DNA from: a virus
IMG/VR virus record: IMGVR_UViG_3300035698_013895
Coordinates: 1 to 27,571 of that record
Length of the DNA: 27,571 nucleotides
Reading direction: 5' to 3' (one strand)
Shown: piece after piece, positions 5,481-26,847 of the stretch
Layout of the letters: each line of letters begins with the position of its first letter
How positions within the stretch are numbered: position 1 is the first letter of the stretch
Translations under genes and position numbers: made by a program
Notes under the pieces: generated by a model
What the model saw: only the letters and a program-made list of their open reading frames with translations
Told to the model about the DNA's origin: nothing
Databases searched by the model: none

Positions 5481-6431
5481 CTAATAGATGTACTCTGATC
5501 CGTAGCCGCCAGCAGTGCCAGGAGTGTACTCTATGCCAGCACCACCACCTGTGCCAGCTCCACCACCTGTGCCAGCTCCACCACCACTCCCGATATCGGA
5601 CTGAGAGCCATCGGAAGGAGTTAACCCGCCTCCACCGCCTCCGCCGCCTCCACCGCCGAATGACATACCCTTAAACATGTTGCCCAACTCACCGAACAGG
5701 CCCCCGGTGGACTGTGGTCCCTGCACAATGGGCGAAATAGGCTGAACACCCATAACAGAGCCGAACATCTGCAACCATGGGTTATTGTATGCCTGTCCCT
5801 GGGTCCATTCTTCTTGTGCGCCCGTGAGTCCTGCCTGTTCGATACCTCTCTGCAAATTACCGGCCCCTTGCTCTACGTTAAGCCCTGACGTCATAAGGTT
5901 AGCGAGAGTGGGCGCTGCTGTTAGTTGCCGGTTTAAATGCCCCTGCTGTCCCTGAAAAAGCATATTCGCAAGCTGGCTTGTCAAGTCAGTTGAAAGATTC
6001 CTGCCGCTTTCGGCTATGGCCCTATTAGCCGCGCTGGACCTCCCGGCGTTCTGCCCTATGAAATTTTCACGCACACCGGGCAAGATATTCTGTTCCCAAT
6101 TCTGCATAGCCGGGTCAACGAACATCTCTTGCCATGCGTCCCGTTCCGTTTCCGGGTTCCATTCGCCAAACATATTCTGCAAGGCCCCTTGAGCGCCTGC
6201 GGTCTGCCCTGAGAACTGCCCGGCGTTGCCCATGAAAGAATCAAGCATGGGGTTACTCCCGGCGTATCTCTGACCTGAATAAGGGTCAACGCCCTCATCG
6301 TTAATGCTGGCCCACACATGCTGCCCTAAAGCGTTCAACAGGTTATTTTGAGTAGCTGAATAAGTAGTGGTTTCTCCTACCTGTTTAGCGTCTGAACTGC
6401 TCCCGAATAAACTGTCACTAATCCCGCCCAT
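5481..6431 (-). CDS. Gly-rich virion/DNA-transfer-like protein
   Basis: The product has 316 residues. The start at 6431 has a strong SD (GGAGGTGG), and the first 14 bases overlap the end of the preceding gene. Residues 1-240 are Gln/Asn/Ala-rich and contain a block (FIGQNAGRSSAANRAIAESGRNL) of the kind seen in internal or DNA-transfer proteins of short-tailed phages. The C-terminus is a linker of 11 consecutive glycines, then a repeated GTGGGA unit, ending in a Tyr/Gly-rich tail. The Gly-rich tail suggests a flexible tether. It is probably the first of three ejection-related proteins. This is inferred from neighbourhood and composition. Confidence 0.7.
   Translation of the reverse strand: MGGISDSLFGSSSDAKQVGETTTYSATQNNLLNALGQHVWASINDEGVDPYSGQRYAGSNPMLDSFMGNAGQFSGQTAGAQGALQNMFGEWNPETERDAWQEMFVDPAMQNWEQNILPGVRENFIGQNAGRSSAANRAIAESGRNLSTDLTSQLANMLFQGQQGHLNRQLTAAPTLANLMTSGLNVEQGAGNLQRGIEQAGLTGAQEEWTQGQAYNNPWLQMFGSVMGVQPISPIVQGPQSTGGLFGELGNMFKGMSFGGGGGGGGGGGLTPSDGSQSDIGSGGGAGTGGGAGTGGGAGIEYTPGTAGGYGSEYIY
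5535..5588. repeat. 18-bp tandem repeat in a Gly-rich coding region
   Basis: Two full copies and one partial copy of an 18-bp unit (GCCAGCTCCACCACCTGT on the plus strand, with one A/T difference) encode the GTGGGA hexapeptide repeat near the C-terminus of the 5481-6431 product. Because 18 is a multiple of three, copy-number change would keep the frame. Confidence 0.8.
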
Positions 6432-7009: not shown

Positions 7010-8537
7010 TGGCAATCCTCCCGGCAGGTTTAAACCACGGCATTATACCATGGATTTTCACTGCGCCCGCCGCATTGGTCAAACTGAATCTGTGACTCGC
7101 CGCCACATTATTGACGTAAATTCTAACCCATGCTTTTTCACCGTCCTGGTCAAAGTCAATGGTTTCTGACGAATAGGATGCTGGTTCAAAGTCCATAAAT
7201 AAATTCACGGTGACTTCAACGCCTGAAACTGGTTCGATAAGAAAGTCGATATATCCAAGCCTGGACTTTACGCCCTGAGTTTTATATGGATTCCAGCGGC
7301 CCGATATGACAGAAAGGCTTATCTCTGCTGAATCGTCCACCGCGCCCTCGTTTAATTCATAAACTTTACCATCAGAGGCCCCGCCCAAAAGAACAGGATA
7401 GCCCGCCTGTGTGGTCGCCTCATCCCATGCCCGGTTAGCCTCTTCCCATGTGCCGGTCATTGTCGCCCATGTCAACGTGGCGCTCTGTGTTGTCGCTCCA
7501 AGGCATGTCATGGGCATGTCTATAGTTGCCCATGCTCCGGTTTCGTAATCCCACACAAGAGCCTTGTCGGGGCTTGTCTCGCCCATGGATGGGTATAAAA
7601 CCCAGGCTTGCCGTGATTCTTCAACTATCAGCCCAAAACATTTATTGATACTTTCGGCGTTCCAGTCTAAAACCGCGTCCGGTATTCTCTGATCGATTCT
7701 GACCACGCCTGAACCGTCTGACTGGACCATGCCTGTCTTGCCCAGGGCAAAAGAACGTCCCCGGATTTCCATGACTGTCTTTCCGGCGATTGCTCCGTAT
7801 TCTGTTGAAATGCGGTCTAAGACAAAAGGTGTGGTGGAATCCCCGGTGTATCTGAAAAGCCATGCTGAGTTGCTACACCAAATAATTATATTGTCGCCAA
7901 GATACCCAACACCCTTTATCCATTCAGAGGTGGGCAAATCAATATAACCGCCCTGGCCTGCTGCTTCCTCCCAGTCTGTAGTGTCTCCAGCCTTGCACCA
8001 TCTTGCTCTCTGAGGGTATGCCGTGCCGTCCTCTGTTGTGCTGAAAAGTATCACGCGCTCTTTCTGAACGAGAGTAAACCAACATGCTGTTAATTGGTTG
8101 CTTGTGTCTCCGTTCAGGTCAACTTTAACGTAGCCAGCAGTCGTGCCGTCAAAATATCTCAAGCGGTCGTTTCCGTTCGCCATATATATTTTACCGTCAT
8201 AATTTACCCATGAAATTAGATTATCCGCGTCCCCGGTCCATATATCCGAGCCGTCCAGGTCCGTTATAGAACCGCCTGAATATTCATAAAGACGCTTAGT
8301 ATCGGCCACGAGTAGCGTTTTTGTGCCGTCTGATTCGACAAAATCCATCAGCCCGACAATGGGGTTGCCTGCCCCGGTGTCTGTAAAATCAATGTATCCG
8401 CGCCGTTTTTGCAGCACACCATCACGCAAAAAAGCATTGTGGAGTTCTGAATATGCGTCATGGGGCAAAAGCCAAGGCTCAATGTCAAGCTCAAGGCCTG
8501 TTTTCATCCCCGCAACTAAAAAAGGAGTGTAAGGCAT
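7002..8537 (-). CDS. Beta-propeller tail nozzle protein (T7 gp12 / P22 gp10-like)
   Basis: The product has 511 residues and starts at 8537, overlapping the upstream stop by one base (TAATG). The sequence is a chain of beta-strands with repeated blades that end in patterns such as KTLLVADTKRLYEYSGG, GKIYMANGNDRLRYFDG and KALVWDYETGAWATIDMP. This is characteristic of the propeller that forms the tail nozzle or stabilisation ring of short-tailed phages. It is expected to be hexameric, attached below the adaptor ring, closing the channel and carrying the fibres. Context agrees: the tail fibre gene is immediately upstream, and the adaptor gene lies slightly further upstream. The C-terminal 120 residues form a separate beta-rich domain. 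Confidence 0.85.
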   Translation of the reverse strand: MPYTPFLVAGMKTGLELDIEPWLLPHDAYSELHNAFLRDGVLQKRRGYIDFTDTGAGNPIVGLMDFVESDGTKTLLVADTKRLYEYSGGSITDLDGSDIWTGDADNLISWVNYDGKIYMANGNDRLRYFDGTTAGYVKVDLNGDTSNQLTACWFTLVQKERVILFSTTEDGTAYPQRARWCKAGDTTDWEEAAGQGGYIDLPTSEWIKGVGYLGDNIIIWCSNSAWLFRYTGDSTTPFVLDRISTEYGAIAGKTVMEIRGRSFALGKTGMVQSDGSGVVRIDQRIPDAVLDWNAESINKCFGLIVEESRQAWVLYPSMGETSPDKALVWDYETGAWATIDMPMTCLGATTQSATLTWATMTGTWEEANRAWDEATTQAGYPVLLGGASDGKVYELNEGAVDDSAEISLSVISGRWNPYKTQGVKSRLGYIDFLIEPVSGVEVTVNLFMDFEPASYSSETIDFDQDGEKAWVRIYVNNVAASHRFSLTNAAGAVKIHGIMPWFKPAGRIANG

Positions 8538-9697
8538 TATTCAAACCTTCCGGCTAAATCCTCGTAGCCTTCAATGGACCATGTAAGTGTGCCATTGCCA
8601 CCGATTGATCTAATTCGGAACTGCCCGCTTGTGTTGGTCTGGATTCTGACATTACCCTGTGCAAGCATCCCTGCCGCGCCTGTCCCGACCTGCGTATTTG
8701 AATTTGTCGCTGCAATATCTGTCTGGTTGAGGCTGGAAAACCTTATTCTGTTGCCGCCTGTTGAGCCTACTATCCCCGCGTTAATTATTGCAAGGACTGT
8801 TACGCCTGTCGGAGTCTTGGTAGTCGTTGCGGTTTGGGCGGTGTTGACTATTGGATAAAATGAATCAGCTTCAGCAACGGGAGAATCCCAAAGGAACAAG
8901 GCCCCGTGCTGAGAAAAGCCCAAAATGTTCTGGCTGCCATCCGTCAGGACAGAGCCGAGCCTTTTATATTTTGTGTAGTCGGTAGCGTCTACAAGAAGAT
9001 TTGTGGCCGTCAATGACGTATCAAATCCAGCATCAACAGCCCCGGTAGTAGGATTTTTTATGAGAAATACATGGTACCATGTTATATTGGCAAGGCTTAT
9101 TCCTGTTGGGAAGCCGCCCGCCCCGGTTCCGGCTGTCCATCCGGCATCAATCCTCTTTGTCATAGCGGTCGATAATGAGATTCTTGCGTCAAAGCTGGCC
9201 GCAAGCCTGGCCCCGATAGATATAGTAATATCATGGTCAGAATCTCCCGCCGCGTTGGAAAGAACACAGCCAAACTCAACGCCACCTGTCGCAAGCTGAG
9301 TATCAATCCCCGTTAAATGGGCGGATATCGAATCATCGGCGGCGGTGTAATTTATAGCCGTGTGGTCTGCAAACAGGCCGCCATCATCTGAAATCTGAAC
9401 AACATTGCCGTCTTCATCTTCCCAATGGAGTTCAACCTTTGCGCTTACATCCTTGGTGTAAACAAATCCCTTATTCGCCACATTAGCCGGGTCCGCAGAC
9501 TGTGGCGCATTAAAGGTAATTTTGTCATGCTCTCCGTGGTCCGCGTCAGTCCCGGCGATTACGAAATAATGGTCTTTCGCCATCCTTTCCCGGATATCAA
9601 CTTTCAATTCTCTTATCCGGTCATCACCTTCTGAGATATTATCGCCTGCGGCAGGGGTCGCCTCGAATGCCGCGTTCCAAGTCTGTGTATAAGCCAT
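8537..9697 (-). CDS. Tail fibre protein
   Basis: The product has 386 residues. The N-terminal 45 residues (MAYTQTWNAAF, then GDNISEGDDRIRELKVDIRERMAKDH) match the common N-terminal segment of phage tail fibre proteins that begins with a short helix and a D-R-I-R-E-L-K-x-x-I-x-E-R block. The rest is Gly/Ala/Thr/Asp-rich and beta-like, as expected for a trimeric fibre shaft and tip. The C-terminal region ends in NGTLTWSIEGYEDLAGRFE, resembling a receptor-binding tip or trimerisation domain. Unlike its two secreted neighbours it has no signal peptide. Host-range determination is inferred from family role. Confidence 0.8.
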   Translation of the reverse strand: MAYTQTWNAAFEATPAAGDNISEGDDRIRELKVDIRERMAKDHYFVIAGTDADHGEHDKITFNAPQSADPANVANKGFVYTKDVSAKVELHWEDEDGNVVQISDDGGLFADHTAINYTAADDSISAHLTGIDTQLATGGVEFGCVLSNAAGDSDHDITISIGARLAASFDARISLSTAMTKRIDAGWTAGTGAGGFPTGISLANITWYHVFLIKNPTTGAVDAGFDTSLTATNLLVDATDYTKYKRLGSVLTDGSQNILGFSQHGALFLWDSPVAEADSFYPIVNTAQTATTTKTPTGVTVLAIINAGIVGSTGGNRIRFSSLNQTDIAATNSNTQVGTGAAGMLAQGNVRIQTNTSGQFRIRSIGGNGTLTWSIEGYEDLAGRFE

Positions 9698-19868: not shown

Positions 19869-20303
19869 TTACCACTCCAAAAAGATTAAAGTCCTTGGAC
19901 TGCTACCATCGGCATAGCCCTTGACCGCCCTTATCGTTGTGACCTGGCTATCATCATGGTATATTTCGCCATTCATAACGTCTTTGACAAATTTGATAAG
20001 GTTGTCAAGGTCCGGCTTTTTCGTATGGTCTTTTGGTGCTGTTGGTTTGAGCTTATCCTTATTTTTACCTGTCCCATAATGACCCTTTGGCCTGGGCATA
20101 TAAAAAAAAGCTACCATTGCAACGGCTACGCCACTGGGAATCGGCTCATGGTTTTTCACCTGTTGTCTGATTTCAAACAGGAATTTTCCCTCTGCGGTTT
20201 CTTGTTCCCCTGTTTTGTAGGTCCGCACAAACTTTCCTACTCTGGCAAATCTGACCCTGGCCTTTGCTATTGGAGTTCCTGTTATTTTTAAGCTCAATCT
20301 CAT
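19869..20303 (-). CDS. rusA: RusA-family Holliday junction resolvase
   Basis: The product has 144 residues with AGGAG eight bases before the ATG. It has the RusA signature: an N-terminal G-x-P-I-A-K-A-R strand (residues 9-16), then KKPDLDNLIKFVKDVMNG (95-112) and YHDDSQVTTIRAVKGY (115-130). D98, D100 and the D117/D118 pair fit the metal-binding acidic residues. The dimeric enzyme cuts Holliday junctions and branched DNA, here likely resolving replication/recombination intermediates before packaging. It is placed between SSB and the packaging genes, as in many lambdoid phages. Length is close to the family norm of about 120 residues. Confidence 0.9.
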   Translation of the reverse strand: MRLSLKITGTPIAKARVRFARVGKFVRTYKTGEQETAEGKFLFEIRQQVKNHEPIPSGVAVAMVAFFYMPRPKGHYGTGKNKDKLKPTAPKDHTKKPDLDNLIKFVKDVMNGEIYHDDSQVTTIRAVKGYADGSSPRTLIFLEW

Positions 20304-20318: not shown

Positions 20319-20777
20319 CTAAAAGGGTATTTCTACGTCATCCTCTGCGTTTACGTCCGGTTCAGGAGATTTTTTCTCCTGGCTAGCCGCAAAACCACCT
20401 TGGCCTTGCTGATTGCCGCCATATCCACTCTGGTTCGGCCTATCCCCTTGACGTACGCTTTCCTTTGGTCCGAGCATTTGCATTGAATATGCAATTATCT
20501 CAGTAGTATATCTTTTATTTCCGTCTTTGTCCTCCCACTGGCTTGTCTGGATTCTTCCCTCGATATAAACCTGTTTCCCCTTGTGGAGATATTTCCCGCA
20601 AACTTCAGCCAGCTTGCCAAAGGCCTTTATCCTGTGCCACTCCGTCCGCTCCTCGTCTTTGACCTTTTCCGTTGTCGCTATGCTGAAATTGCAAATTGCA
20701 AGCCCGGCACTGGTAAATCTGGTTTCAGGATTACGCCCAAGGTTGCCGATTAAAATTGCCTTATTTACCGCTGCCAT
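20319..20777 (-). CDS. ssb: Single-stranded DNA-binding protein
   Basis: The product has 152 residues with AAGGAG upstream. Residues 1-105 form the OB-fold: KAILIGNLGRNPETRFTSAG, then NFSIATTE, EWHRIKAFGKLAE and YIEGRIQTSQWEDKDGNKRY. A Gly/Gln-rich linker follows, then the acidic tip DDVEIPF, close to the DDDIPF tail that binds bacterial repair and replication partners. It coats single-stranded DNA during replication and supports RecT-type annealing. It sits between the Cys-rich protein and RusA. Confidence 0.93.
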   Translation of the reverse strand: MAAVNKAILIGNLGRNPETRFTSAGLAICNFSIATTEKVKDEERTEWHRIKAFGKLAEVCGKYLHKGKQVYIEGRIQTSQWEDKDGNKRYTTEIIAYSMQMLGPKESVRQGDRPNQSGYGGNQQGQGGFAASQEKKSPEPDVNAEDDVEIPF

Positions 20778-21028: not shown

Positions 21029-22357
21029 CTAATCCTCCCCGTGTGCAGGCGTTTCAAATGTTTGCGTTTTCTTCATCCAGTATAAGCCGATCTTTGCTAT
21101 TTCGCCGTTGCGTTGCTTGGCTAATATCAGTTCTGCATTTTTGGGGTCTGCACCTGAATCATAAACAATATCCCGGTAAAGAAATAAAATTACATCTGCG
21201 TCTTGCTCAAGAGAGCCTGAATCTCTCAAATCTGCCATGCGGGGCCGTTTATCTGGCCGGTCCTCCACTTTTCGGTTTAGCTGAGATAATGCCACGACTG
21301 GCACGTTCAGTTCTTTTGCCATGTTCTTTAGCCCGGCGCTGATTTCAGTCACCTCGTTCACTTTTTTGCGGAATCGTTCGGCCCTGATTAATTGCAGATA
21401 ATCAATAATAACCATATCAAGGCCCTCTTTCTTTTTCACAGCCCGCGCTCTTCTTGCTATTTCCATCATCTTCAATCCGCCGGTGTCGTCAATAAAGATC
21501 GGCCAGTCTGCTATTTGCTCGTATGCCTCTGTGATTTTATAAATGTTGTCATCATTCAAGGGGCCATTTCTCAAGAGCATTGAATTAACCCCGCTTTCGA
21601 TGGCAAAAAAACGATTGACCAGTTGCTCCTTGCTCATCTCCATCGAAAAAATCATGGTCCTTGAACCATTCCTCTTGGCCGCATTTCTGGCAATGTTCAA
21701 GGCCATGGCTGTTTTTCCCATGCTCGGACGTGCTGCCAATAGGATAAAATCTGAAGGCTGAAGCCCCCCCGTAAGACCGTCCAGCATAAAAAGACCTGTC
21801 TTGACACCATCCTTTGACTCTTTGCCAATTAGCGCCTCATAAGTGTCCATCTGGGCAACGGCTAAAGTATTAATGCACTCGTAGGTCTGGGTTTGTGACG
21901 TGTGTTCTATGCCTATAATGCGCTTTTGGAAGGTATCAAGTAGTTCCTCTGACTCCGTTGCATGGTCGTAACAGGCTTCCGTTGCTCTCTGACATTGCGC
22001 TATTATTTCACGTTTGAGGGCATGCCCTTTAATAATTTGCATATGAGCATCAAGGCTTGTGGATATCGGGATGTCTGAGCAAAGCCGAGCCAAGGCCAGG
22101 TACCCGCCTACCTCATCAAATTTACCATTTTTTTTGAGCTGGTCCGATGCCGTCAAAAGATCAAGGGGTTTCCCCGCTTTGTAGAGCTGCGATAACGCAC
22201 CAAAAATAGTGGCATGGCTGCTTGGGTAAAAGTCGCCTGCCGCCAAAGTATCAAATATTTTACCAGCTACCACAGAATTGATAAGTAGGGAGGCTAATAT
22301 TGATTCCTCTATCTCAAGATTTTGAGGAGGTATTTTTATAAGGCTTGGATCATTCAT
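21029..22357 (-). CDS. dnaB: Replicative DNA helicase, DnaB family
   Basis: The product has 442 residues and starts in the ATGA overlap with the initiator gene. The N-terminal domain (residues 1-150) begins with PPQNLEIEESILASLL, typical of DnaB. The RecA-like motor has Walker A ARPSMGKTA (209-217), Walker B MVIIDYLQLI (315-324), and the ALSQLNRKVEDRPDKRPRMADLRDSG segment (356-381). The hexameric helicase unwinds the fork. No separate loader gene is seen, so the upstream initiator may load it or host proteins may do so. The final residues FETPAHGED resemble other phage DnaB ends. Confidence 0.95.
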   Translation of the reverse strand: MNDPSLIKIPPQNLEIEESILASLLINSVVAGKIFDTLAAGDFYPSSHATIFGALSQLYKAGKPLDLLTASDQLKKNGKFDEVGGYLALARLCSDIPISTSLDAHMQIIKGHALKREIIAQCQRATEACYDHATESEELLDTFQKRIIGIEHTSQTQTYECINTLAVAQMDTYEALIGKESKDGVKTGLFMLDGLTGGLQPSDFILLAARPSMGKTAMALNIARNAAKRNGSRTMIFSMEMSKEQLVNRFFAIESGVNSMLLRNGPLNDDNIYKITEAYEQIADWPIFIDDTGGLKMMEIARRARAVKKKEGLDMVIIDYLQLIRAERFRKKVNEVTEISAGLKNMAKELNVPVVALSQLNRKVEDRPDKRPRMADLRDSGSLEQDADVILFLYRDIVYDSGADPKNAELILAKQRNGEIAKIGLYWMKKTQTFETPAHGED

Positions 22358-23034
22358 GAGTATAAATCCTTTAGGCCTTCAGGAGTTAAGACTTCTGGAG
22401 TTGGTGGCATATCTTTCTGGTTAAATTTAATTTCATTTGTAAGCCACCGTTGCCATGCAGCATACCAGCTTTTAAACTTATTTCCTTTTGCCCGATGAAA
22501 AAGCAAAAAGGATTCTGTCAGATATGGGATATCCCCGGTATAGCCTTTAGAGGCCGCATATTTTTTCATTTCATCTGTGACCGGGTAGCTTTTTGGAGCA
22601 ATAGTATTCTTCTTAGAAACTTCTTTACCTTCTTGTATGTGTCCTTTGGTTGTCCTTTGGTTGTCCTTTGGTTGTCCTCCTGCCTGTCCTTCTTGCTTAT
22701 TGTTGCCTTGGTAAGTATCATAATTTATTATAGTTATTATAGAATAATGGGTGTCACTTTGGATGTCCAGATTTTGAGCTTTTTTTAATTTTTCTATCAA
22801 ATTGCGAACCGTGGATGGTTTCATCTTTAATTTTTTAGCGGCTGCTTTTCTTCCAAATATAAATTGTCCGCGCTTTAAAAACACCTCGGTTGTTCCCCTG
22901 CCTGTTTTAACAGAGGTCCATCCATCTTTCCATTGTGCCCTCATCAGACACCACGTCCAAACTTTCCAAAGTTTCTCACTCTGAAAGGCCTGAGAGTCTA
23001 TACTCTTGCGATATAATTTTATGAAGTCACCCAA
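22354..23034 (-). CDS. Phage replication initiator (O-like, winged helix)
   Basis: The product has 226 residues. The start is a TTG at 23034 with GAGG seven bases upstream. The N-terminal domain contains LWKVWTWCLMRAQWKDG and then a winged-helix region (GQFIFGRKAAAKKLKMKPSTVRNLIEKLKK, residues about 56-85), a common layout of phage replication initiators. After a linker (about 111-145) the C-terminal part includes ESFLLFHRAKGNKFKSWYAAWQRWL, a segment also seen in such proteins and likely to contact the helicase. The linker and the end of the winged-helix region also carry the iterons and AT-rich tract described separately, as lambda O carries ori. It is followed directly by dnaB. Confidence 0.85.
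   Translation of the reverse strand: MGDFIKLYRKSIDSQAFQSEKLWKVWTWCLMRAQWKDGWTSVKTGRGTTEVFLKRGQFIFGRKAAAKKLKMKPSTVRNLIEKLKKAQNLDIQSDTHYSIITIINYDTYQGNNKQEGQAGGQPKDNQRTTKGHIQEGKEVSKKNTIAPKSYPVTDEMKKYAASKGYTGDIPYLTESFLLFHRAKGNKFKSWYAAWQRWLTNEIKFNQKDMPPTPEVLTPEGLKDLYS
22641..22673. repeat. Three 11-bp origin iterons
   Basis: The 11-bp unit GTCCTTTGGTT is repeated three times without a mismatch, followed by a partial unit (GTCCT) at 22674. As 11 is not a multiple of three, each copy is read in a different frame (residues 121-132 of the initiator), so the repetition is kept at DNA level and not as a peptide repeat. This suggests binding sites for the initiator protein. Confidence 0.8.
22641..22748. 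other. Probable origin of replication inside the initiator gene
   Basis: Three iterons (22641-22673) are followed 42 bases later by a 33-base segment (22716-22748) with only three G/C bases, containing a direct 9-bp repeat (TTATTATAG at 22725-22733 and 22734-22742). Iterons next to an AT-rich unwinding element within the initiator gene is the arrangement of lambda ori inside gene O. The function as origin is inferred, not shown. Confidence 0.65.
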
Positions 23035-23056: not shown

Positions 23057-23124
23057 ATTCCCTGGATATGTCCCAACGCTACAACACGTTGCCTGGGCGT
23101 TGCCGCTTCAGGTATCCAGGGAAT
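23057..23124 (-). terminator. Long hairpin before the replication operon (attenuator candidate)
   Basis: ATTCCCTGGATA (23057-23068) and TATCCAGGGAAT (23113-23124) form a perfect 12-bp stem around a 44-base interior. The interior holds further stems: CAACGC (23074-23079) with GCGTTG (23097-23102), and CAAC with GTTG (82-85 and 88-91 of the 23000 range). Read on the minus strand the outer stem is followed by TTTTTATTTATT, as in an intrinsic terminator. It ends only 22 bases before the initiator start, so it could control read-through from the cro-like promoter into the replication genes. Confidence 0.55.
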
Positions 23125-23140
23125 AAATGAATTTTGATTT

Positions 23141-23216
23141 GTGGTTTACAGAGCATTGTCGTATCTCCAAACGGTTGTAGTGTAACGGACACCCAAACCA
23201 CTAATACAGGCTGTAA
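23141..23216. repeat. Second set of interleaved inverted repeats
   Basis: GTGGTTT (23141-23147) pairs with AAACCAC (23195-23201), and TTACAG (23146-23151) pairs with CTGTAA (23211-23216). In between, GTGT and ACAC form a short hairpin around AACGG (23180-23192 region). The two outer pairings exclude each other, as expected for an RNA switch, or they may be protein-binding sites. The right part lies in the last codons of the zinc-ribbon gene. Confidence 0.45.
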
Positions 23217-23894: not shown

Positions 23895-23908
23895 GCCATG
23901 AAAATGGC
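23895..23908 (+). promoter_or_regulatory. Leader hairpin with GNRA loop
   Basis: GCCAT-GAAA-ATGGC forms a 5-bp stem with a GAAA tetraloop in the leader of the rightward operon. It also contains a five-codon reading frame (ATGAAAATGGCGTAA, 23898-23912) ending shortly before the ribosome binding site of the first gene. It may tune mRNA stability or translation. Confidence 0.4.
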
Positions 23909-23928: not shown

Positions 23929-24222
23929 ATGACAGAGCCAGTGCCGGGATTAGACGGATTTAACGGAGTTGAAGTTGCTATCGGGAAGTTTTGGGTTTGG
24001 ATAGTTTCACCCGAAATTGAGATGCACGATGTTCTTGAAGGCCCGGTTGTCGTTCGGCAGATACCTGAAATCTATTTTGATTTCATGCTGCTGATTGACG
24101 AAGATATTACAGAAATGCCGTCAGGGACTTTGCGGACGGTAACGGAAAAGGAAAGGGATGCTGTCGTTGACCATCCCGACTTCACCGATACCGTCATCAA
24201 GGCGATGGAGGCGGCGGAATGA
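23929..24222 (+). CDS. Acidic small early protein, first gene of the rightward operon
   Basis: The product has 97 residues. AAAGGAG lies seven to eight bases before the ATG. It is strongly acidic, with many Asp/Glu and few Lys/Arg, and beta-rich in the middle (GVEVAIGKFWVWIVSP, then GPVVVRQIPEIYFDFMLLIDED), followed by a C-terminal helix (DTVIKAMEAAE). No family is recognised. As the first gene behind the operator-controlled early promoter it is a candidate host-takeover or anti-defence factor; the acidity would allow DNA mimicry. Both ideas are inference. Confidence 0.8.
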   Translation: MTEPVPGLDGFNGVEVAIGKFWVWIVSPEIEMHDVLEGPVVVRQIPEIYFDFMLLIDEDITEMPSGTLRTVTEKERDAVVDHPDFTDTVIKAMEAAE

Positions 24223-24791
24223 TACTGACAACCTCATTGCAGCTTTGCAAAAAGAATGGAGCCTGCGAATATTATTTTAATAGGGCACTTGCTCTCGCAA
24301 AAGAACGAGGAATTGCCATGGCAACGCCGGTACCAATTATTGACCTCGTCGGGGTGTTACCCATTGAGGCTGTTGTATGGACGCTCCAGGCAACGCCCAA
24401 AAAACAGCGGGAAGTCGCTATAAAAACAGCACTGCTTTTTGCCTGCGACTGTGCCGAACATGTCCTGCCTATTTTGGAAGAAGAATTTCCAACTGACAAC
24501 AGGCCCCGTAAAGCCATTGAGACAGCGAGGCTATTTTTAAAGGGCAAGGTAACTTTACAAGAGTTTAAAGCTGCCCTCTATGGTGCCGCTCTTCCCGCTG
24601 CTACCTATGCCGCCGCACATGCCAGTGCCGCCGCCGCCTATGCGGCACATGCTGTCGCCGATGCCGCATGTGCAGATGTAACCGATGCAACCTTCGCTGC
24701 CGCCCTTGCCGCCGTCGTCGCCTATTCTGACTATAAGGGCGAGTGGCAAGAGAATAAACTCAAGGAATATCTTGGAGGGAAAACGGAATGA
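24219..24791 (+). CDS. Ala-rich protein, 'putative immunity protein'-type
   Basis: The product has 190 residues with GGAGG upstream and an ATGA overlap with the previous stop. After a helical N-terminal half it contains CAEHVLPILEEEFPTDNRPRKAIETARLFLKGKVT (residues 78-112, cited in parts), then a long Ala-rich stretch of YAAAHA, AYAAHA and ADAA units (129-167), and a charged C-terminal helix. This arrangement (the D-x-R-P-x-K-A-I-E-x-A-R block followed by Ala/Tyr/Asp repeats) is known from a family labelled putative immunity protein, frequent in phages and bacteria, with no settled function. The Ala-rich part probably forms a repeat helical bundle. Confidence 0.75.
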   Translation: MILTTSLQLCKKNGACEYYFNRALALAKERGIAMATPVPIIDLVGVLPIEAVVWTLQATPKKQREVAIKTALLFACDCAEHVLPILEEEFPTDNRPRKAIETARLFLKGKVTLQEFKAALYGAALPAATYAAAHASAAAAYAAHAVADAACADVTDATFAAALAAVVAYSDYKGEWQENKLKEYLGGKTE

Positions 24792-24922
24792 TTGACCTTT
24801 TCAACGAATACCGAGGCCCTATCATGGCAGGTGCGCTTTTCATAATCGTTTACTTTGGTGTCTGGCGCTTAGGGATTAAGACCATGCTGGACGAAATAAA
24901 AGAAATGGAGAAACGGAAATGA
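24788..24922 (+). CDS. Small single-span membrane protein, 44 residues
   Basis: The gene begins in the ATGA overlap with the previous stop and ends in the ATGA overlap with the exonuclease gene, so it is tightly coupled. The product is MIDLFNEYRGPIMAGALFII and then VYFGVWRLGIKTMLDEIKEM plus EKRK. One membrane segment (residues about 11-28) is followed by a charged helix. It has GGAGGGAAAC upstream as ribosome binding site. Function unknown; small membrane proteins in early operons can affect host envelope processes. Confidence 0.8.
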   Translation: MIDLFNEYRGPIMAGALFIIVYFGVWRLGIKTMLDEIKEMEKRK

Positions 24923-25641
24923 AGCCTGGAATTTATGAAAACCTGCCATTCAAGGAATATCTCGAAATAAAGGCCGTAAGCAAATCCAGGCTTGCCGACT
25001 TTGCCGAAAGCCCCGCCCACAGCCAAAAGGCCAAGCCAGAAACAACGGCTATGAAAACCGGGCGCGAGTTTCACCATGCGGTCCTTGAGCCTAAAAAATA
25101 TATTGAAAAATCGGTCAGTGCTGCCGAAAGGAGGAAGCTCGAAATTGCTGTAGCCTCCATCAAGGCCCATGCGAATTGGCCCTTTTTTGATAGTTGCCTG
25201 AAGGAAGTATCAATCTTTTGGGAACACCCCATGCTTGGCCTCTGTAAAATGCGAGCGGATATGATTGACACTGAAAAACGAATTATTGTTGATCTTAAAA
25301 AATCAGCAATAAGGGAGTTTGCAGACCTTCCCGCCACTATTTATAAAAGGAAATATCACTGGCAGGCTGAGTTTTATAATCAAGGAGCCGGTGAAATAAT
25401 CCCAGGAGAGGCCCCGTTCACGTTTTTCTTGCTCTTTGCCGAATGGACTTCGAGCGCTCCATCATTTACCGCCTTTGGGCGCGTTTCTGGCGACTTGCTC
25501 ATAAAGGCAAGGCGTGAGCTTGACGCGATCGTTCCTGATTACCTTAAGTGCGTAGAAGACGATTACTGGCCTGGCCCCTATGATCCCGAACGTGGGCAAG
25601 GAAATTTTATAGAATTTTACCCGCCCGCTTGGGCAAAATAA
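24919..25641 (+). CDS. Exonuclease, RecE/PD-(D/E)XK family
   Basis: The product has 240 residues with GGAG eight bases upstream. The N-terminus (GIYENLPFKEYLEIKAVSKSRLADF) is typical of the phage RecE-like (DUF3799/PDDEXK) nucleases. Visible catalytic elements are H52 (GREFHHAVL), D114 (MRADMID), D125-x-K127 (IIVDLKKS) and the YHWQAEFYNQG motif (146-156). The enzyme degrades 5' ends of double-stranded DNA and hands the 3' strand to the annealing protein encoded next. The gene pair is equivalent to lambda exo/bet or Rac recE/recT. Length is that of the C-terminal nuclease domain of RecE. Confidence 0.9.
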   Translation: MKPGIYENLPFKEYLEIKAVSKSRLADFAESPAHSQKAKPETTAMKTGREFHHAVLEPKKYIEKSVSAAERRKLEIAVASIKAHANWPFFDSCLKEVSIFWEHPMLGLCKMRADMIDTEKRIIVDLKKSAIREFADLPATIYKRKYHWQAEFYNQGAGEIIPGEAPFTFFLLFAEWTSSAPSFTAFGRVSGDLLIKARRELDAIVPDYLKCVEDDYWPGPYDPERGQGNFIEFYPPAWAK

Positions 25642-25653
25642 AGGAGTAAGTTT

Positions 25654-26847
25654 ATGGAAAAGTTACCGACCGTTAATAAAAATAGAGGTGTGTCGCTTTT
25701 TTTTGATGTCGCAAAGTTTAAACATGCCCATCAAGTAGCCGATCTTCTGAGCAATTCAAGCCTTGTTCCAGACCATTTCAGGAATAATTTAGGCAACTGC
25801 TTAATTGCCCTTAATTTTGCAGATCGGGTTGAACTTGACCCCTATATGGTTATGCAAAATATGTATGTAGTTCACGGCAGGCCCGGCATTGAGGCAAAGC
25901 TTGTGATTGCGCTGGTTAATAAATCAAGACAGTTTTCTCCGTTGCAATTCAAGTTGTCAGGTGAAGGCATGAACCGCAAATGTATATGCTGCGCCAAACG
26001 CAAGGACACCGGAGAAAAATGCGAACAAACCGTAACAATGCAGATGGCAGAGGCCGAGGGCTGGATAAATAAAAAAGGGAGCAAATGGCAAACTATGCCT
26101 GACCTTATGTTGCAATATCGTAGCGCTACTTTTTTTGCTAGGCTTTATTGCCCAGAAGCAATCCTTGGCTTTCAAACAAGCGAGGAAATACACGACTTTG
26201 TTGATGTGACGCCAAATAGCAACGGCGTTTATGAGCAGAAAACCTCTACTGAACTTAATGCAGCCCTTGAAAAAGAGAGCCAGGTCTCCAGGCCTAAAGT
26301 TCCAGAACGGCAGAACGAAAACCCTTTCGATAATATACAAGGATGGGAGGAACTGGACTTTGGCGGCCTGAAAGCATTTTATCTCAATAATGAAAGGCAT
26401 TTTGAAACGGCCAGCTCCGTAGCCACTACGAATTTCAAAGCCAAAATGGGCACACTCCGTCAGAATGCGGAGGAAAGCAACCCCGCCAAAAATCCTTTTG
26501 ACAATCCAAAAAACTGGAGGGGCCTTCGAAAAGCCGGGCTTTCAACCTTTTATTATGAGAGCAAGCACTTTTTTGAAACTGCCAGCCCTGAGAACAAAAC
26601 TGAATTTATCGCCAAGTGGGAACGGGTTTATGGCAAAGAAGAACCGTTTCCCGATGAAGGCCTCGTTTCTGACGAGCCGCCCCAGGAGCAGGAAGAAGAA
26701 GTTGGCGTTATCTTCTGTTCCAAATATGGCAAACGCAGAAGTTTAGCTTATTGCCAAAATGATTGTTATGAATTTGCAGAATGCAAATATCGCAATCCAC
26801 CGGAAACTGATATGCCCCAGGACGAACCAAGCGGCCCCCCGGAATAG
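25654..26847 (+). CDS. RecT-like annealing protein with duplicated C-terminal module
   Basis: The product has 397 residues with AAAGGAG upstream. Residues 15-185 are RecT-like: NNLGNCLIALNFADRVELDPYMVMQNMYVVHGRPGI, then MPDLMLQYRSATFFARLYCPEAILGFQTSEEIHD, cited in parts. This protein anneals single-stranded DNA made by the neighbouring exonuclease. A Cys cluster (C110, C112, C113, C123) is inserted in the core. The C-terminus is unusual: two related modules beginning with NPFDN (223 and 280) each of about 45 residues with W-x-x-L, F-Y and H-F-E-T-A-S segments, then an acidic linker and a four-Cys motif (C355, C367, C371, C377). At 397 residues it is longer than ordinary RecT. Confidence 0.85.
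   Translation: MEKLPTVNKNRGVSLFFDVAKFKHAHQVADLLSNSSLVPDHFRNNLGNCLIALNFADRVELDPYMVMQNMYVVHGRPGIEAKLVIALVNKSRQFSPLQFKLSGEGMNRKCICCAKRKDTGEKCEQTVTMQMAEAEGWINKKGSKWQTMPDLMLQYRSATFFARLYCPEAILGFQTSEEIHDFVDVTPNSNGVYEQKTSTELNAALEKESQVSRPKVPERQNENPFDNIQGWEELDFGGLKAFYLNNERHFETASSVATTNFKAKMGTLRQNAEESNPAKNPFDNPKNWRGLRKAGLSTFYYESKHFFETASPENKTEFIAKWERVYGKEEPFPDEGLVSDEPPQEQEEEVGVIFCSKYGKRRSLAYCQNDCYEFAECKYRNPPETDMPQDEPSGPPE

Follow-up and report, generated by a model that had tools for sequence, protein, structure and literature searches.

The stretch of DNA analyzed here, referred to as the window, is a virus record of 27,571 bases in which the genes up to about 23.9 kb lie mostly on the minus strand. They are arranged in the order of structural genes with a P22-like portal, a RusA Holliday-junction resolvase (19869–20303, minus strand; Pfam RusA, E = 1.3e-24), a single-strand binding protein (SSB; 20319–20777, minus strand; Pfam SSB, E = 1.3e-36), a DnaB-like replicative helicase (21029–22357, minus strand; Pfam DnaB_C, E = 3.9e-97; phrog_19, E = 1.3e-104) and, with the helicase gene directly downstream of it, the gene for a 226-aa protein that begins with a TTG start codon (22354–23034, minus strand). 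Just upstream of this gene, at 23057–23124, is a perfect inverted repeat (12/12 nt) made from ATTCCCTGGATA and TATCCAGGGAAT, 44 nt apart, which belongs to no Rfam family; an Rfam search gave no match. An alanine-rich repetitive protein (AAYAAHA... / AAYSAYSAA...) is encoded nearby on the plus strand (24219–24791) and has a counterpart on another contig, L001 (3381–4190, minus strand; relatives are referred to by L numbers), with which it shares a PR-AI/SI-A motif and which is likewise encoded close to the initiator. Exonuclease VIII-like (DUF3799) and RecT-type annealing genes (24919–26847, plus strand) form a recombination module that lies on the opposite strand and points away from the replication operon.

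The 226-aa protein is assigned as a DnaD-like helicase loader, or replisome organizer, by its match to phrog_2514, which spans residues 1–208 (E = 7.6e-30), and its gene contains the candidate origin described below. The same PHROG profile matches all 44 members of homologue set A5, and 22 of the 44 also match phrog_345, “replication initiation O-like”. No Pfam model matched the window protein at its cut-off, nor did any NCBIfam model. The canonical DnaD C-terminal domain (TIGR01446 / Pfam DnaB_2) is present in the relatives L004 and L011 and absent from the window protein, and “DnaD-like” is therefore used here only as the name of the PHROG. A profile built from the homologues has weak similarity to DnaD (8ojj, E = 0.28).

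AlphaFold2 modeling predicts a confident winged helix (pLDDT block means of 85–98 for residues 11–110), which places a winged-helix DNA-binding domain in codons 1–109 (22708–23034, minus strand), with helices at residues 62–69 and 73–85 and wing strands at 89–93 and 98–102. The C-terminal part is predicted to be helical with lower confidence. Between these two more confident parts, residues 117–136 and 140–146 have pLDDT values below 50 and are predicted to be disordered; they coincide with the codons of the repeat array and of the conserved element 3' of it. Comparison with viral fold models returned replisome organizers and lambda O-type domains, including the O protein of Escherichia phage ECP1 (TMt 0.81) and a GpO N-terminal protein. 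The resemblance to O-protein domains agrees with the analogy to lambda that had been drawn in a first-pass annotation of this DNA. A search of the PDB with the model gave nothing at E ≤ 0.001; the plasmid initiator 4pt7, a RepA_N protein (PMC7145576), was found at E = 0.14.

Inside this helicase-loader gene is an array of 11-bp direct repeats, which the first-pass annotation had described as an iteron-type array embedded in an initiator gene, with three exact copies in tandem. Both descriptions hold: GTCCTTTGGTT occurs exactly at 22641–22651, 22652–22662 and 22663–22673 and, within one mismatch, nowhere else in the window. The perfect tandem run extends over 22640–22678, or 3.5 copies. Read on the coding (minus) strand, the array consists of a degenerate copy, GGACAGGCAGGA, three copies of GGACAACCAAA and then GGACACATACAAGAAGGTAAAGAAGT. 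The degenerate iteron (22678–22689) precedes the first perfect copy at a spacing of 12 bp, and the relative L016 shows the same readable 12-11-11 spacing. Iterons 1 (22667–22677), 2 (22656–22666) and 3 (22645–22655) are read in codon phases 0, 2 and 1, respectively, and the array ends in a half iteron, GGACA (22640–22644, minus strand), that merges into the conserved 3' element, an arrangement seen in the phase-locking of aligned homologues. Two single near-iterons, each with one mismatch, lie outside the array: GGACATCCAAA (22758–22768, minus strand), which has the same orientation and may be a coding coincidence, being part of the peptide LDIQS, and GGACACCCAAA (23187–23197, plus strand), which lies in the intergenic stretch ahead of the initiator gene and may be an operator or a chance match. 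By chance, 0.66 matches with at most one mismatch are expected in the whole window. No second array was found in the 27.6 kb.

The 11-bp repeat is neither a chance occurrence nor accounted for by the encoded protein. The run of period-11 identity is 28 bases long, while the longest run at any period from 6 to 30 in 60 Markov-simulated windows was 12. When codons were redrawn synonymously to give the same amino acids, none of 20,000 redraws reached a period-11 run of 28, the maximum being 18. Since 11 is not a multiple of three, the copies are read in differing codon phases, and the repeat thus brings no gain to the peptide, which across the three copies reads QPKDNQRTTKG and is poorly conserved. 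The proposal that selection acts on the DNA, and not on the linker, is supported. A different kind of repeat is found at 5534–5585, where 2.9 copies of an 18-bp tandem repeat are in codon phase and, in contrast to the 11-bp array, code for a peptide repeat, in the glycine-rich C-terminus of the open reading frame at 5481–6431.

A repeat in one gene alone could represent recent slippage, and relatives were therefore examined. Searches of phages, viral contigs and genomes yielded 76 dereplicated homologues, of which 74 were long enough for a test of period; the homologue scan used a three-sequence profile, a nine-sequence profile being too diverged. The best period was 11 in 45 of the 74, the next commonest being 9, in six, and the period-11 score exceeded that of synonymous-codon permutations at p ≤ 0.01 in 47. 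Nearly all of these 47 significant arrays start at nt 309–382 of the gene, right behind a conserved V-I-T-I-x-N-W-x-x-Y-Q strand. The remaining 27 homologues miss p ≤ 0.01 for period 11, and in some of them the spacing is instead 12 or 23 bp or the copies are degenerate. At the array site of L014, L015, L135, L133 and L183, a spacing of 12 bp or 23 bp (11 + 12) replaces that of 11. The units themselves vary widely (CCAAACACCAA, CAACAAATCAA, GAACAGCTACC, CGGACAACAGA and others); when they are aligned to a fixed point, a loose core emerges, with A at 87–90% and C at 78–85% at two core positions, followed by a variable tail. The first-pass annotation had named a vanished 11-bp periodicity in close relatives as an outcome that would speak against it, but in the relatives the period persists and it is the unit that changes.

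Nearly every relative has a family element, ACACAWACAAGAATGTAAAGAATG, immediately 3' of the array. In 60 homologues, it is matched at 16 or more of 24 positions and is in a fixed phase with the array, whereas the best match in shuffled linkers is usually 13–15. The window version, ACACATACAAGAAGGTAAAGAAGT (22619–22642, minus strand), agrees with the family consensus at 21 of 24 positions, compared with 17.2 expected from synonymous choice (p = 0.002), and by its conservation, synonymous codon choice and the family scan it is a candidate unwinding or helicase-loading site. The usual reading of the element is TNKNVKN, but other frames are used in the window, L119, L083, L135, L085 and others. 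In L085, synonymous choice likewise favors the consensus (p = 0.0017), while some other out-of-frame members are not significant. Since 48 of 57 copies of the element share one codon frame, selection at the protein level may contribute in that common frame.

A plain-DNA scan of viral contigs for the element returned at least 120 stretches, and the following figures are taken from the 80 exact matches listed. All 80 follow a repeat, with a period of 11 (64 matches), 22 (10), 23 (three) or 12 (three), and 77 of the 80 lie in a recognized homologue. The core of the element, ACACAWACAAGAATG, has an exact match in eight of ten records searched whole, once in each. One exception is L193. On this relative, an 11.9-kb fragment that does not include an initiator gene, three copies of TTGACATCAAT and the element are found in a non-coding gap between structural genes (reverse-complement positions about 2605–2715), possibly representing a second, extragenic origin. 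DnaD is associated with a single-strand TnnT motif (PMC10201434), and from its sequence the T-rich strand opposite the 3' element could supply TnnT sites.

The first-pass annotation had considered the 11-bp unit a new iteron specificity, but the exact window unit is found in tandem in three other viral contigs, L274, L275 and L276. The winged helices of L274 and L275 are 46% and 54% identical to that of the window, and all three agree in the recognition helix, ST[VI]RN, and in the wing, D[ST]H[YF]S. L016 and L093 are closer to the window overall (63% and 60%), yet differ in both recognition helix and unit. This pattern is what co-evolution of a binder and its site predicts and is suggestive of it, although few sequences are involved. 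An uncorrected Mantel test between winged helix and unit gave rho = 0.50 (p = 0.0005), which mostly represents shared ancestry, and per-residue coupling between winged helix and unit with relatedness controlled did not reach significance (0.245, where the 95% level of the null is 0.248). In L276, the identical three-copy GGACAACCAAA array lies behind the N-terminal domain of an initiator from another family (8079–8954, plus strand). The L276 contig is GC-rich, and GAATGC/GAATAC-like repeats come after its array.

Repeats inside the genes of replication proteins are known from several systems. The organizers of the lactococcal phages Tuc2009 and TP901-1 are reported to bind repeats in their own genes, and these serve as ori (PMC8965321). 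As in the window, the repeats of Tuc2009 (orf16), r1t (orf11) and TP901-1 (orf13) lie inside a DnaD-like organizer gene just past the N-terminal domain. In Tuc2009 and the lactococcal phage r1t, repeats of 11 bp (CAACCAAATGA; TGGAACCGAAA) precede purine/AT-rich repeats of 15 bp, but these two phages have proteins of other families (phrog_5708 and phrog_1163), and their 3' repeats are of 15 bp, not 9 bp; in TP901-1, the repeats are of 15 bp instead of 11. ORF20 of Staphylococcus phage 80alpha is not complemented in trans, and ORF20–21 drive plasmid replication (PMC5499656). The 80alpha record annotates a rep_origin, and this origin, like that proposed for the window, is embedded in the initiator gene, which drives plasmid replication together with its loader; however, its repeats are about 30 bp apart without an 11-bp array, and it uses the host helicase where the window phage has its own DnaB. 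The gene examined as a tested relative, ORF15 of phi11, has no 11-bp array. That the embedded origins of 80alpha and TP901-1 are experimentally established and yet lack 11-bp arrays counts against the model proposed below.

In lambda, iterons and an AT-rich region lie inside gene O and are bound by the N-terminal domain of the O protein. The lambda iterons are longer, about 18–19 bp, and imperfectly palindromic; thus, lambda ori and the window share in-gene repeats with an AT-rich region, but the window units are 11 bp long and asymmetric. In SPP1, gp38 binds direct repeats beside an AT-rich unwinding element, and oriL lies in gene 38 (PMC6316719). The window has the same layout of direct repeats and AT-rich element within an organizer gene, and the extragenic array of L193 parallels SPP1 oriR, whereas the window has its single array. 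Among plasmids, pSK41 has its Rep boxes inside rep, where the N-terminal winged helix binds them and the origin-coding central region serves as a linker; RepA_N domains resemble DnaD (PMC5703833). The window array likewise lies in the linker-coding part of its gene, but the repeat architecture differs, and a RepA_N replicon was rejected, there being no Pfam RepA_N match and only the fold match to 4pt7 noted above. A Rep_3-type replicon, which combines a Rep_3 initiator with extragenic iterons about 22 bp long (PMC5703833), was also rejected on the Pfam search and the positions of the repeats in the window.

The segment at 22619–22689 is very probably the replication origin of the window phage, located in its own initiator gene. 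This in-gene layout is already known from other phages, and the window is a further case. The analysis establishes the array, its constraint at the DNA level, its conserved position together with the 3' element in many phages, the predicted fold and the operon, while binding, unwinding, helicase delivery and the origin function in this particular phage are inferred. The encoded winged-helix protein, as modeled, is the likely binder of the array. Its N-terminal domain would bind the 11-bp iterons, and as 11 bp corresponds to one helical turn, successive protomers would face almost the same side of the double helix. The resulting ordered oligomer would open or capture the AT-rich element, whose place right at the 3' end of the array is fixed, and the C-terminal part would then deliver its expected cargo, the phage DnaB encoded next door. 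Because the array codes for a disordered interdomain linker, its DNA is free to vary without harm to the protein. Of the genome-level signals, the cumulative GC-skew minimum is at 23,897, exactly at the switch in gene orientation and hence confounded, in a window that is maybe incomplete. The exact DnaA box TTATNCACA occurs in the window at 9684, 13280 and 17050 only, and none is near the array.

A different arrangement of the same in-gene origin would have unwinding take place on the 5' side of the array. The first-pass annotation had described the repeats as leading into an AT-rich tract with a doubled motif and had taken this tract as part of the origin. The tract (22716–22748, minus strand) is indeed 30/33 A/T and carries two tandem copies of TTATTATAG (22725–22742), but it does not follow directly, as 42 bases (22674–22715) lie in between. 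Unwinding here, with the near-iteron at 22758–22768 flanking the tract on its far side, is a real but rather unlikely prospect. The tract is the most AT-rich stretch of the gene and exceeds synonymous expectation (p = 0.018). However, it codes for the conserved winged-helix strand YSIITIINYD (SIITIINYDTYQ), and across the family the 5' side is barely enriched in A/T (67%, against 63% for the gene) while the 3' side reaches 76% and is the higher of the two in 42 of 53 cases. Conservation in both sequence and phase is seen only for the element on the 3' side of the array. As the AT tract occupies the side with less conservation and is part of the code for a conserved strand of the protein, the 3' element is the better candidate for unwinding and loading, and the tract was not retained as the principal origin element. 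The 3' stretch of the window itself is just about 65% A/T, so this assignment rests on conservation. A helper role of the AT tract as an auxiliary unwinding tract is possible, given that no part of the gene is more AT-rich.

Other explanations do away with an origin at this site. Winged-helix domains are commonly found in repressors, and the array might be an operator through which the protein controls its own operon, with the origin elsewhere. The intergenic near-iteron at 23187–23197 would fit such a role, but the main array is some 350 bp into the gene and not at a promoter, and the array and element accompany a helicase-loader gene in 77 of the 80 matches listed. In analogous phages, in-gene repeats were the origin where tested (PMC8965321, PMC5499656). 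Operator function as the sole explanation is thus improbable, although it could be an additional function of the array. Even less credence is given to a low-complexity linker born by slippage without any function in the DNA: slippage can create tandem repeats, and the linker is predicted to be disordered and is poorly conserved, but the 11-bp period shifts the frame at each copy, leaving a peptide that is not repetitive; moreover, the same period is found with different sequences at one site in many phages, and the phase-locked 3' element is kept across codon frames and, once, outside any gene. Phage pac sites can sit inside genes, and the L193 array is among structural genes; nevertheless, a packaging or recombination site is likewise highly improbable, as the window array is not in a terminase gene but in a gene of the helicase-loader family, beside those for the helicase, SSB and RusA.

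The reading of 22619–22689 as an in-gene origin can be extended beyond the window. There is probably a widespread modular origin, in which a winged-helix loader gene is combined with fast-changing 11-bp iterons phase-locked to ACACAWACAAGAATGTAAAGAATG, in phages of Bacillota, Desulfobacterota, Bacteroidota and others. Specificity would diversify by joint changes in the unit and the recognition helix, with the loading element kept constant. No description of the shared element was found in the literature searched, many subscription papers, including the review by Weigel and Seitz, being outside reach, and the family-wide anatomy may be undescribed. A few model phages have supplied the in-gene origins known so far; here, one anatomy is recognizable from sequence alone in viruses of very different hosts. 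An 11-bp array joined to a fixed, 24-bp AT-rich element makes a practical search for phage origins in metagenomes possible, and the matched pairs of initiator and iteron offer a natural series in which to follow the evolution of winged-helix specificity. The fixed element, in turn, gives a testable prediction of the place where the helicase would be loaded.
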